The notes beneath the pieces are model-generated. The model was given only the letters and a program-made list of their open reading frames with translations, did not search any database and was not told the origin of the DNA. From Candidatus Evtepia faecigallinarum (GTDB lineage Bacteria; Bacillota; Clostridia; Oscillospirales; Oscillospiraceae): 32,534 nucleotides of DNA. A program made the translations under genes and the position numbers. The stretch is from NCBI GenBank assembly GCA_019115225.1, contig DXEA01000088.1:1-32534 (forward strand). Reading direction: 5' to 3'. Of the stretch, positions 380 to 32,534 are shown one piece after another; position 1 is the stretch's first letter, and every line of letters starts with the position of its first letter.

Positions 380-398
380 CCGTACCAACACACCGCGC

Positions 399-494
399 AA
401 AAGCCTCGCAGCCGTTTCCCGCCCCCAGGCGGGAAACGAACATCCCATCTCTTTTTCCGCGGACATGCGCCGGGGAAAAATTCCCGTTTTTGGA
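399..494. repeat. Degenerate/partial copy (C) of the multi-hairpin intergenic repeat
   Basis: aaaagcctcgcag + hairpin tttcccgcc-ccca-ggcgggaaa + degenerate T-rich/A-rich stem, colinear with the start of copies at 26417 and 31196. Confidence 0.6.
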
Positions 495-26609: not shown

Positions 26610-27470
26610 TCACTCCCAGATCATCGTACCGATACCCTGGTGAGAGAGCATTTCGGTGAGGATGGAGTGGGGGATGCGGCCGTCGAGAATGTGGGTGCGG
26701 TGGACGCCGTTTTCCAGGGCGCTCACACAGCACTGGATCTTGGGGATCATCCCGCCCCCGATCACCCCGCTGGCCAGCAGGGAGGGGATCTCCTCCAGCC
26801 GGATCTGGCGGATGAGGGTGCTCTCATCCTTGGGGTCCCGCAGCACGCCCCGCACGTCGGTGAGCAGGATGAGCTTCTCGGCCCCCAGGGAGACCGCCAG
26901 CTCCGCCGCTGCCGTGTCGGCGTTGATGTTGTAGGCGGTGTCGTTGTCGATGCCCAGGGCCACCGTGGAGACCACGGGGATATACCCGCAGGTCAGCGCG
27001 TCGTTGACCACCTGGGGGGCCACCTTGACGATCTTGCCCACCAGCCCGTATTTCTCGTCCAGCTTTTTCGCCTGGAACAGGGCCCCGTCCAGGCCGCACA
27101 GGCCGATGGCTCTGCCGCCCAGGTTGTTGATGATGGAGACCAGGTGCTTGTTGACCTTGCCGCACAGCACCTGCTGGACAATGTCCATGGTCTCCTCGTC
27201 GGTGTAGCGCAGGCCGTCCACAAACCGGGACTGCTTGCCGATCTTCTCCAGCATGTGGCCGATCTCCGGCCCGCCGCCGTGGACCATGACCACCCGGACG
27301 CCCACCAGGTGCAGGAGGATGATGTCGCTGATGACCGCCCCCCGCAGCTCTTCAGAGATCATGGCGTTGCCGCCGTACTTGATGACCACGGTCTTGCCAT
27401 AGTACTTTTGAATGTAGGGCAGCGCCTCCACCAGGACGGTGGAGCGCTCCATATAATCGTGTTTATCCAT
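26610..27470 (-). CDS. argB: Acetylglutamate kinase
   Basis: ALPYIQKYYGKTVVIKYGGNAMISEELR...VVMVHGGGPEIGHMLEKIG...GGMIPKIQCCVSALENGVHRTHILDGR. Confidence 0.97.
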   Translation of the reverse strand: MDKHDYMERSTVLVEALPYIQKYYGKTVVIKYGGNAMISEELRGAVISDIILLHLVGVRVVMVHGGGPEIGHMLEKIGKQSRFVDGLRYTDEETMDIVQQVLCGKVNKHLVSIINNLGGRAIGLCGLDGALFQAKKLDEKYGLVGKIVKVAPQVVNDALTCGYIPVVSTVALGIDNDTAYNINADTAAAELAVSLGAEKLILLTDVRGVLRDPKDESTLIRQIRLEEIPSLLASGVIGGGMIPKIQCCVSALENGVHRTHILDGRIPHSILTEMLSHQGIGTMIWE

Positions 27471-28766: not shown

Positions 28767-29699
28767 TCAGAGGCCGGTGGTCTCGTCAAAGCCCAGCATC
28801 AGGTTCATATTCTGTACCGCCGCCCCGGAGGCCCCCTTGCCCAGGTTGTCGAACAGGGCGGTGATGGTGGTCTGCTCCTCGTGGCCGCAGACGATCAGCC
28901 GCAGCTGGTTGGTGCCCACCAGGGTGTCGGAGTAGATGACGGACTCGTCCCCGCCGAAGGGGGCCACGGAGACAAAGTTCTGCCCCTCATAGTAGGCCTC
29001 CAGCACGGAGTAGATGTTGTAGGCTGTGGGCCCGCCGGGGAGGGTGTCGTTGCGGAGCATGACGGTGGTGGCCATCCCCTGGATATAGTCCCCCAGAATG
29101 GGGTGAAAAACCGGGGGGGCATCCAGCCCGCACACATGGACCATTTCCGGCAGGTGCTTGTGATGGAGGGTGGTGCCGTAGATCCGGGCGGAGGCGTGGC
29201 GGGGGTCCCGGTTGGGGTCTTCATACTCGGCAATGAGCTTCTTGCCGCCCCCGGAGTAGCCGGTGAGGGAGTAGGCACACAGGGGGTGGTCCGGGGGAAT
29301 GAGCCCCAGCTGGACCAGGGGATAGACGGAGGAGATGAAGCCCGAGGCGTGGCAGCCGGGGTTGGCCACCCGCTTGGATTTCACAATGGCCTCCCGGTGT
29401 TTGGCGGAGAGCTCCGGGAACCCGTAGTCCCAGCCGGGGGCCGTGCGGTGGGCGGTGGAGGCGTCGATGACCCGGGTGTTGGGGTTGTCGATCATGGCCA
29501 CCGCCTCCCGGGCCGCCTCGTCGGGCAGGCAGAGGAAGACCAGGTCGGCGGCGTTGAGGCACTTTTTCCGCTCCGCCGGGTCCTTGCGCTTCTCCTCGTC
29601 GATGAGCAGCAGCTCAATGTCCTGCCGGGGGGTCAGGCGGTCGTAGATTTGCAGGCCGGTGGTGCCCTCCCGGCCGTCAATGAATACCACAGGTTTCAT
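28767..29699 (-). CDS. argC: N-acetyl-gamma-glutamyl-phosphate reductase (short, type 2-like)
   Basis: MKPVVFIDGREGTTGLQIYDRL...VIDASTAHRTAPGWDYGFPEL...RVANPGCHASGF...LTGYSGGGKK. Confidence 0.95.
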   Translation of the reverse strand: MKPVVFIDGREGTTGLQIYDRLTPRQDIELLLIDEEKRKDPAERKKCLNAADLVFLCLPDEAAREAVAMIDNPNTRVIDASTAHRTAPGWDYGFPELSAKHREAIVKSKRVANPGCHASGFISSVYPLVQLGLIPPDHPLCAYSLTGYSGGGKKLIAEYEDPNRDPRHASARIYGTTLHHKHLPEMVHVCGLDAPPVFHPILGDYIQGMATTVMLRNDTLPGGPTAYNIYSVLEAYYEGQNFVSVAPFGGDESVIYSDTLVGTNQLRLIVCGHEEQTTITALFDNLGKGASGAAVQNMNLMLGFDETTGL

Positions 29700-31078
29700 G
29701 CTTCACGCTCCTGGATGAATGCCTTGAGGTTGGCGATCTGGACCTTCACGGCCTCGGGGGCGGGGCCGCCGTAGACCTTCCGGCCGCCCACGCAGGTCTC
29801 CAGGGACAGGGCGTCGTAGACGTCGTCCTCGAAGTAGGGGGAGACCTTTTTGTACTCCTCCAGGGGGAGGGTCTCCAGGCTGTGGCCGGTTTCCACACAG
29901 TGGCCCACCAGCTTGCCCACGATGCCGTAGGCCTCCCGGAAGGGCATGCCCTTCTTGGCCAGATAATCCGCGCAGTCGGTGGCGGAGATGAAGCCGCCGT
30001 TGGCCGCCTGACGCATGTTGGCCCGGTTGACGGTGAGGGTGTCCATCATGGCGGTAAAGACGGGCAGGCAGAGCTCCACGGTGTCGATGGTGTCAAAGAC
30101 GGGCTCCTTGTCCTCCTGCATGTCCTTGTTGTAGGCCAGGGGGAGGCCCTTCATGACGGTGAGCAGGGTGATGAGGGAGCCATACACCCGCCCGGTCTTG
30201 CCCCGGACCAGCTCGGCCACGTCGGGGTTCTTCTTCTGGGGCATGATGGACGAGCCGGTGGCATAGGCGTCGTCCAGCTCGATGAACTTAAACTCCCAGC
30301 TGCACCACAGGATGAGCTCCTCCGACAGGCGGGAGAGATGCATCATCAGGATGGAGCAGGCGGAGAGGAACTCGATGGCAAAGTCCCGGTCGGACACCCC
30401 GTCCAGGGAGTTGTCCATGGGTTTCTGAAAACCCAGGAGCTGGGCGGTGCGGAACCGGTCCACCGGATGGGTGGAGGTGGCCAGGGCCCCGGAGCCCAGG
30501 GGGGACTCATCCAGCCGGGCCCGGCAGTCCTCCAGCCGGGTGATGTCCCGGCGGAACATGTTGGCATAGGCCATCATGGCGTGGGCAAAGGTGATGGGCT
30601 GGGCCCGCTGGAGATGGGTATAACCGGGCATGATGGCGTCCAGGTTGGCCTCCGCCTGACGGACAAGGGCCTTTTCCAAGTTGACGAGCATGCCCACGAT
30701 GACGGGGATCTCCTCCTTGACGAACAGGCGGAAGTCCACGGCCACCTGGTCGTTGCGGCTGCGGGCGGTGTGCAGGCGCTTGCCGGTGGCCCCGATGCGC
30801 TCGGTGAGCAGGACCTCCATGTTCATGTGGATGTCCTCACTGTCCTTGGTGAACTCCACCTTGCCGTCCTCGATCTCCTGTAAAAGGACCTTTAAGGTCT
30901 CCACGATCTTCTCGGCCTCTTCCTTGGCGATGATCCCCTGTTCCCCCAGCATGGTGGCGTGGGCGATGGAACCGGTGATGTCCTGCCGGTACAGCCGGGC
31001 ATCAAAGGAAATGGAGGAGTTAAAGTCGTTGACCTGATCGTCGGTCTCCTTCTGAAACCGTCCAGCCCATAATTTCAT
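29696..31078 (-). CDS. argH: Argininosuccinate lyase
   Basis: MKLWAGRFQKETDDQVNDFNSSISFD...TARSRNDQVAVDFRLF...GYTHLQRAQP...GSSIMPQKKNPD. Confidence 0.98.
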   Translation of the reverse strand: MKLWAGRFQKETDDQVNDFNSSISFDARLYRQDITGSIAHATMLGEQGIIAKEEAEKIVETLKVLLQEIEDGKVEFTKDSEDIHMNMEVLLTERIGATGKRLHTARSRNDQVAVDFRLFVKEEIPVIVGMLVNLEKALVRQAEANLDAIMPGYTHLQRAQPITFAHAMMAYANMFRRDITRLEDCRARLDESPLGSGALATSTHPVDRFRTAQLLGFQKPMDNSLDGVSDRDFAIEFLSACSILMMHLSRLSEELILWCSWEFKFIELDDAYATGSSIMPQKKNPDVAELVRGKTGRVYGSLITLLTVMKGLPLAYNKDMQEDKEPVFDTIDTVELCLPVFTAMMDTLTVNRANMRQAANGGFISATDCADYLAKKGMPFREAYGIVGKLVGHCVETGHSLETLPLEEYKKVSPYFEDDVYDALSLETCVGGRKVYGGPAPEAVKVQIANLKAFIQEREA

Positions 31079-31195
31079 AAGCATGTTCCTTTCCTATAGA
31101 ACGGCGCAGAGCAGGACCCAACGATCCTGCCCCCGCCATAGTTTTCCTGTCATACAGACTTCCCGGCCATCCCCCAAACACCAGGGGCGCAGCCC

Positions 31196-31370
31196 AAAAG
31201 CCTCGCAGAGTTTCCCGCCCCGCAGGGCGGGAAATCAAATCCAATCCATTTTTTCACCGGCTCCGCCGGTGAAAAAATTCTTCTCAGTCCGGGAGTGCCT
31301 GGCCCCGCCAGGCGCGGTTCGGACTGCAATCCCCAAATTTTGAAGCCCAGCGCAGCGGGTTCAAAATTTC
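31196..31370 (-). repeat. Multi-hairpin intergenic repeat, copy B (argG-argH gap)
   Basis: Same ordered hairpins as copy A with compensatory substitutions. Confidence 0.85.
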
Positions 31371-31376
31371 ACGCTC

Positions 31377-32534
31377 TCAAAGTTTCTTCTGTTCTCTCAG
31401 CGCCTGAACGGTGTCGGGCAGACCCCAGAGGTTGATGAAGCCGGTGGCGTCATCCTGGTTGTAGTCGCTCTCCTCAAAGGTGACCAGCTTTTCCGAGTAC
31501 AGGCTCTCGGGAGAGGTGACGGAGGAGGTGATGATGTTGCCCTTGTACAGCTTCAGCTTCACGGTGCCGGTGACGTGCTTCTGGGTGTCGATGGCAAAGG
31601 CGGTCAGGGCCTCCCGCAGGGGGGTGAACCACTTGCCGTTGTACAGCAGGTCGGCCCAGTCGATGGCCAGCTTCTGCTTCATGTGCTTGGTGTCCTTGTC
31701 CAGGGTGATCATCTCCAGCACCTCGTGGGCCCGGTAGAGGATGGTGCCGCCGGGGGTCTCATACACGCCGCGGTCCTTCATGCCCACCAGCCGGTTCTCT
31801 ACGATGTCCAGCAGGCCGATGCCGTTTTCGCCGCCCAGCTTGTTCAGGCCCTCGATGATCTTGGAGGCCTTCATCTTCTCGCCGTTGAGGGCCACGGGCA
31901 CGCCCTTTTCAAAGTCCAGGGTCACATAGGTGGCCTCGTCAGGGGCCTTGAAGGGGGAGACGCCCATCTCCAAAAAGCCGGGCTTGTCGTACTGGGGCTC
32001 GTTGGCGGGGTCCTCCAGGTCCAGACCCTCGTGGGAGAGGTGCCACAGGTTCTTGTCCTTGGAGTAGTTGGTCTCGCGGCTGATCTTCAGGGGCACGTTG
32101 TGGGCCTCAGCGTAGTCGATCTCCTCGTCCCGGCCCTTGATGTCCCACTCCCGCCAGGGGGCGATGATGGTCATATCCGGGGCGAACCGCTTGATGGCCA
32201 GCTCGAACCGCACCTGGTCGTTGCCCTTGCCGGTGCAGCCGTGGGCGATGGCGTCGGCGCCCTCCGCCTTGGCGATCTCCACCAGCTTCTTGGCGATGAT
32301 GGGCCGGGCGAAGGCGGTGCCCAGCAGATACTGCTCGTAGCTGGCGCCCATTTTCAGGGAGGGGATGATGACGTCATCCACCATCTCGTCGGTGAGGTCG
32401 GCGATGTACAGCTTGCTGGCGCCGGTCTTGATGGCCTTTTCCTCCAGGCCCTCCAGCTCGTCGTCCTGGCCCACATCGCCGGACACGGCGATGATCTCGG
32501 GATCATTGTAGTTCTCCTTCAGCCAGGGGATGAT
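31377..32534 (-). CDS. argG: Argininosuccinate synthase (N-terminus beyond window edge)
   Basis: [47 protein letters not shown]...[15 protein letters not shown]; frame open through position 32534. Confidence 0.97.

Follow-up and report, generated by a model that had tools for sequence, protein, structure and literature searches.

A family of short multi-hairpin elements in Oscillospirales genomes, probably mobile, with relatives that flank themselves with duplicated terminator stem-loops

The window studied here, a stretch of 32,534 nucleotides from Candidatus Evtepia faecigallinarum, carries two copies (A and B) of a repeat between genes of an arginine biosynthesis cluster. The original prediction pointed out that differences between the copies preserve the pairing of their stems, which was taken to suggest selection on structure and a possible role in differential expression within the operon. 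Do these repeats serve the arginine genes, or are the arginine genes merely one of the places where they are found?

Structure of the repeat and how its stems change

Five hairpins common to copies A and B could be confirmed in the sequence, as could the paired differences between them. Stem 1 reads cccgTC/GAcggg in A and cccgCC/GGcggg in B; a G-C pair of stem 2 in A is an A-T pair in B; the compound stem of B has one extra T-A pair; and a T-A pair of the last stem in A is A-T in B. In addition, the 5' end of the element carries a mini stem (STC-GCA-GAS), the inner hairpin of H3, the compound stem, is completely exchanged between the two copies, and a third, decayed copy exists; none of these had been part of the original prediction. 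The positions are collected in Table 1. As a side observation, another genome of the comparison (G004) has a fuller copy (L053) at the same place as the truncated third one.

Table 1. Elements and arginine genes in the window (gene calls from a simple codon model; CM R1, covariance model R1)
Feature	Position	Strand	Basis
Copy B, complete element of the stop-adjacent (S) subfamily, argH/argG gap	31194..31370	+	CM R1 191.9 bits, E 2.9e-56; fold z -8.6
Mini stem CTC-GCA-GAG of copy B, preceded by conserved AAAAGC	31202..31210	+	column-pair counts, boundary profile
H1 hairpin of copy B, TTTCCCGCCC-CGCA-GGGCGGGAAA	31211..31234	+	covariation, fold
H2 hairpin of copy B, ATTTTTTCACCGGC-TCC-GCCGGTGAAAAAAT	31248..31278	+	covariation, fold, G.T/A.C mismatch counts
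H3 compound hairpin of copy B, with internal loop	31285..31326	+	covariation, fold, alignment A1
H4 terminal hairpin of copy B, AAATTTTGAAGCCCAGCGCAGCGGGTTCAAAATTT; argG stop codon 7 nt away	31335..31369	+	fold
Copy A, complete element, argD/argB gap; 3' end abuts argB stop codon	26417..26609	+	CM R1 187.5 bits
Third copy, decayed, mainly H1 and H2, upstream of obgE	397..489	+	CM R1 42.2 bits, E 1.6e-11; direct repeat D1
argG, open at window end; stop codon abutted by copy B	31377..32534	-	ORF; sister-species tblastn
argH, downstream gene of the operon	29696..31084	-	ORF; sought in 16 genomes of the genus
argB, stop codon abutted by copy A	26610..27470	-	ORF

The pairing extends well beyond these two copies. 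In an alignment of 40 copies that was made without structure, and from which R1 was built, 97.6% of the stem cells pair and 34 of the 51 stem pairs change on both sides. The covariation score of 0.415 compares with 0.141 in shuffles and at most 0.091 when the partners are slid. Unpaired changes are far from being as common as compensatory ones, with about 48 unpaired cells (2.4%) against 290 cells changed on both sides. In the mini stem, column pair 11-19 is CG in 18 of the 40 copies and GC in 18. H1 exists as 171 distinct hairpins whose arms are near-perfect despite this diversity.

For copy B, the z score of the + strand fold is -8.6 as RNA and -8.8 as DNA, and that of the - strand, as RNA, is -4.6. 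On the + strand, G.T mismatches in unique hairpins outnumber A.C mismatches 106:9 in H2 and 49:2 in H4, and the two are equal in H1 (18:18); these counts are not fully independent, since a single conserved wobble position, common to related copies, accounts for part of the excess in H2. The wobble pairs and the internal loop of H3 are conserved, as are the unpaired linkers. The excess of G.T over A.C speaks for a + strand that folds in single-stranded form, as RNA or as DNA.

The stems do not seem to change only by single steps. At five orthologous loci of sister species with closely similar flanks (L194/L151, L035/L057, L047/L054, L050/L293 and L045/L270), the linkers are near-identical and whole hairpins are different. 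Covariation in this family is therefore not simply stepwise compensation, and what separates A from B in the stems is in part the exchange of blocks rather than a set of independent compensatory steps. The suggested selection on structure thus stands in one respect, as the single-strand structure appears constrained (pairing is kept across copies and across genera, and G.T far exceeds A.C), but each A/B pair cannot be counted as independent evidence for it, because whole hairpins are exchanged at one and the same locus. Paired substitutions between repeat copies should be read with caution in general, as they can arise from the exchange of hairpin blocks.

Distribution of the family and its stop-adjacent members

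The genome of the window (G000, a MAG of 93% completeness) contains 57 matches by DNA search and 66 by the covariance model. Covariance-model matches in sister species of the genus range from 0 to 81, with none in 5 of 16. At the level of the order we found matches, T and S types (see below) taken together, in 31 of 197 genomes and 22 of 110 genera from several families, the best ones being full length. A scan of public genomes for the pattern yielded 120 loci, and those listed belong to Oscillospiraceae or related Clostridia. About 100 strong copies lie in named MAGs and isolates, the latter including Sporobacter termitidis DSM 10068 and Oscillibacter sp. ER4; most of the genomes compared are MAGs. 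The boundaries of the element are sharp, with almost no conservation upstream of AAAAGC or downstream of H4. Rfam recognized only a tRNA in the window and gave no match to the element above the gathering score; phage and plasmid collections yielded partial matches only, one of them in a Vescimonas replicon. Searches of the open-access literature, literal consensus strings included, returned no description of the element. The family thus is large, spread across Oscillospirales genomes and apparently unreported.

Some copies deviate from the standard architecture. The short loop of H4 gives way in L033, L043, L045, L048 and L054 to a domain that is about 60-100 nt long and has motifs in common (CACCCCCGT and CGAACGAAG), and L007, L013, L015, L022, L025 and L029 end, on the 3' side, in a tandem repetition of the H3-H4 or H4 module. 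On its 5' side, the element often has a second dispersed repeat as its neighbor (GCCCCCTCATCAGTCACC...AGCTTCCCCCCAAGGGGAAGCC and GGCGTCGGTAATAGACGCACCCACC), which gives rise to mosaics, as seen at L217 in the argJ-argC gap of G011, in the 5' flanks of L003 and L011 and in many other G011 copies.

The arginine gaps are occupied in a patchy manner. The argG-argH gap contains the element in three genomes (G000, G009 and G011) and is free of it in seven (G012, G007, G015, G003, G006, G008 and G001). The argD-argB gap is filled in G009 as well (L044), and G011 carries an additional copy in its argJ-argC gap. In the argG-argH gap of G011, the stop codon of argG falls inside the terminal hairpin of the element. 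No clear terminator could be seen next to argG in the argG-argH gaps of the sister species. The same gap harbors a GAGCAGG...CCTGCCC hairpin (at about 31105-31140 of the window) that nearly all sister species conserve, whether or not they carry the element; it is possibly a leader structure of argH.

Copies A and B belong to the S subfamily, whose 3' hairpin typically ends at a distance of 1-7 nt from a stop codon, that of a gene encoded on the other strand. The median distance is 5 nt for S copies of the genus and 7 nt for those of other genera; for the T type described below it is 50 nt. Of the S elements in tandem gaps (both groups), 77 run antisense to both genes and 23 run in sense; copies A and B, on the + strand, are likewise antisense to the arg transcript.

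For nine S sites of G000 we sought the orthologous gaps in G009 and G011, and seven were comparable. At five of these (L022, L029, L058, L021 and L026), a stem-loop of 13-20 pairs in an element-free sister corresponds in position to the element in G000, and G000 shows no stem of more than 7 pairs. At L018 the sister hairpin is weaker, and at L019 there is none. Replacement is not universal, since the element-free gap in one case (L045/L270 compared with the G000 gap in L058) is an operon gap of 14 bp without a terminator. A terminator scan of both strands detected no canonical intrinsic terminator within copies A or B, and one terminator (26421-26398, minus strand) at the margin of copy A. Since neither strand has a canonical intrinsic terminator, a takeover of termination by S elements can be put forward only as a hypothesis. 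If S elements do replace terminators, mobile DNA would take over transcription ends genome-wide.

Terminator-duplicating relatives and an IS1182-family partner

About half of the relatives outside the genus of the window are of a second type (T), with the same core and the same order of hairpins as S. They are about 180-265 nt long and lack a transposase gene. The two flanks of a T element carry one and the same locus-specific stem-loop, as seen in 62 of 134 order-level copies, whose flank pairs score at least 12, where 0.2 would be expected from mismatched flank pairs. The direct orientation prevails (54 versus 26 at a score of at least 20). The duplicated unit is the entire terminator stem-loop (20-43 nt as aligned), and isolates are among the cases. 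Between the stem-loop and the core, both ends carry CAGNCTGTC(A/G)AAAAA inverted repeats, the count of ends being anchored on CAG, with the following positions not part of the anchor. An occupied and an empty site could be compared directly: L363 in G207 lies between two identical stem-loops, while the corresponding gap of G224, G227 and G221 contains only one. Copies that are up to 99% identical occur at different loci of G207, and from such near-identical copies we infer that T elements have moved recently in this genome. By type of gap, T copies are found in convergent (26) and tandem (16 and 8) positions and never in divergent ones (0). In three T copies (L366, L177 and L160), the two duplicated stem-loops have loops of opposite orientation, which suggests hairpin inversion after insertion.

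A search for the DDE_Tnp_1_6 domain uncovered a partner insertion sequence. Its transposase belongs to the IS1182 family (NF033551, 385.9 bits with a cut-off of 270, E 3e-115) and contains the domains PF13751, PF01609 and PF05598. Two insertion sequences, L389 in G040 and L390 in G175, are complete, with ends CAGACTGTCGAAAAAC and CAGTTTGTCAAAAAAC. Each of them (L389/L423 and L390/L425) sits between two copies of one stem-loop and has ends as in T elements, the CAGNCTGTC(A/G)AAAAA ends being common to L423, L424, L425 and L431. Complete IS1182-family elements with T-like ends and stem-loop duplication thus occur in the same bacterial family. G175 and G012 have transposase homologs of 72-74% identity; the one in G012, which belongs to the genus of the window, has the same right end and stands beside a terminator. 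G000 showed no close IS1182 partner, its best homolog having 30% identity and different ends; this absence is weak evidence, because most of the genomes are MAGs (that of G000 being 93% complete) and repeats assemble poorly. G000 also contains a different IS1182-like element (L384, on C24) with ends GGGTCTGTTGACAAAG, unlike those of the repeat.

T relatives are short and dispersed, share their inverted repeats with an insertion sequence and duplicate their target as it does, so they have the appearance of MITEs of an IS1182 transposase that targets stem-loops, and the ends and the stem-loop target shared with a complete IS1182-family element suggest that they are moved in trans. The S subfamily is different in this respect. 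Local alignment of the flanks, which would miss very short duplications, found a duplicated stem-loop in only 2 of 136 genus copies, and these two (L063 and L064) are the T copies that G000 itself possesses. A loose end motif is present in the left flank of 11 of the 136, two of which are again the T copies. Copies A and B start with AAAAGC and end in H4 without CAGNCTGTC, so that neither the inverted repeats nor the target duplication expected of MITEs of an IS1182-type insertion sequence is found in them.

Possible explanations and known systems

Which explanation fits the two copies best? A cis-regulatory RNA of the arg operon, in which the copies tune argH and argB/argJ through the structure of the operon transcript, could account for two strongly folded copies between arg genes. 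However, dozens of copies lie beside unrelated genes, the operon transcript is the minus strand, with its weaker fold (z -4.6 versus -8.6) and A.C in place of G.U mismatches, and the same gap is element-free in most sister species. We regard this explanation as very improbable, and arg-specific regulation was rejected on the grounds of distribution and strand. The proposed role in differential expression is unsupported also because some relatives appear to be transposable and no conserved upstream sequence fit for a promoter exists; the arg operon appears as one host among many. A trans-acting RNA gene, dispersed and transcribed from the + strand, with its wobbles and linkers under selection at the RNA level, would agree with the G.T bias of H2 and H4, the conserved wobble pairs of H3 and the conserved unpaired linkers. 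We consider it rather unlikely, as there is no conserved promoter-like sequence upstream of the 5' boundary, a promoter scan of the arg region found none, Rfam gives no match and H1 has no wobble bias; moreover, single-stranded DNA would produce the identical strand bias.

Palindromes of the REP/BIME type, moved by a RAYT (Y1 HUH) transposase that acts on single-stranded hairpins, would likewise be short multi-hairpin elements in intergenic 3' regions with a + strand bias and mosaic combinations of hairpins. Yet Y1_Tnp has 0 matches in G000 (MAG, 93% complete) and its presence is unrelated to copy number across the genus, and T relatives show inverted repeats of the DDE type along with target duplication, so that we give this idea hardly any credence. 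More serious is the possibility that the paired differences come from mutation and recombination instead of selection, with template switching perfecting the arms and gene conversion exchanging the hairpins. The block-wise differences at orthologous loci with largely identical linkers and the near-perfect arms of the many H1 variants speak for it, but a strand-symmetric correction does not predict the strand-biased wobbles of H2 and H4 or the conserved internal loop of H3. We hold this to be a real, if not the favored, possibility; it bears on the origin of the covariation alone and is compatible with the explanation we prefer.

According to that preferred explanation, which we think is probably right, copies A and B are short, non-coding members of a mobile family whose multi-hairpin core is conserved, T relatives being MITEs mobilized via IS1182 and S members taking the place of a terminator, and they are not an arg switch. 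A travelling element is favored over an arg-gene switch because close relatives appear to insert into, and duplicate, the hairpins that end transcripts. An IS1182-type transposase would act in trans and join the T element at the feet of a terminator stem-loop, and repair would then duplicate the stem-loop. Both flanking genes would keep a terminator, so that T elements may multiply harmlessly. S elements could have come to occupy the place of the terminator through an insertion that replaced it, through a loss of the terminator at a later stage or by way of another mobilizer. The hairpins of the + strand would matter as a single strand, either as DNA during transposition or as RNA. A bolder version, which we advance with considerable doubt, is that one core with two kinds of ends and insertion (terminator duplicated or replaced) serves as a mobile, replaceable terminator that forms the transcript end or boundary of dozens of genes, its + strand hairpins being read as single-stranded DNA by the transposase and exchanged as cassettes. 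The two copies in the arginine cluster would be part of a structured mobile family across Oscillospirales, some of which is tied to a transposase.

The BOX and RUP repeats of pneumococci are small, interspersed repeats of Firmicutes that are modular and form hairpins as the present element does; their target and architecture differ. They were contrasted here by description (PMC3049150). With REP/BIME and RAYT (PMC2817692), the element has in common dispersed intergenic hairpins, a mosaic make-up and 3' positions; it is unlike them in that no RAYT was found in G000, its hairpins are joined by conserved linkers and its relatives have DDE IS1182-type ends. T relatives resemble MITEs (PMC10969869) in being short, non-coding and multi-copy, with inverted repeats shared with an insertion sequence and a target duplication. 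Unlike MITEs, they duplicate an entire terminator stem-loop as target, and their internal multi-hairpin core is conserved across families; copies A and B show neither the inverted repeats nor the duplication of MITEs.

The closest parallel is IS1272 of the IS1182 family, which, like the partner insertion sequence, encodes a DDE transposase and has its target set by stem-loop structure and not by sequence (PMC5678879). IS1272 transposes by replacing the stem-loop (PMC5678879), an outcome that the S subfamily of the window seems to resemble but without the ends. Here, in contrast, duplication is the outcome, and it involves both complete insertion sequences and non-coding elements, in Oscillospirales, with other ends (CAGNCTGTC...). 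Stem-loop duplication by IS1182-type elements had been proposed before only as an alternative in a model (PMC5678879), and the T elements and their partner provide sequence-level evidence for it.
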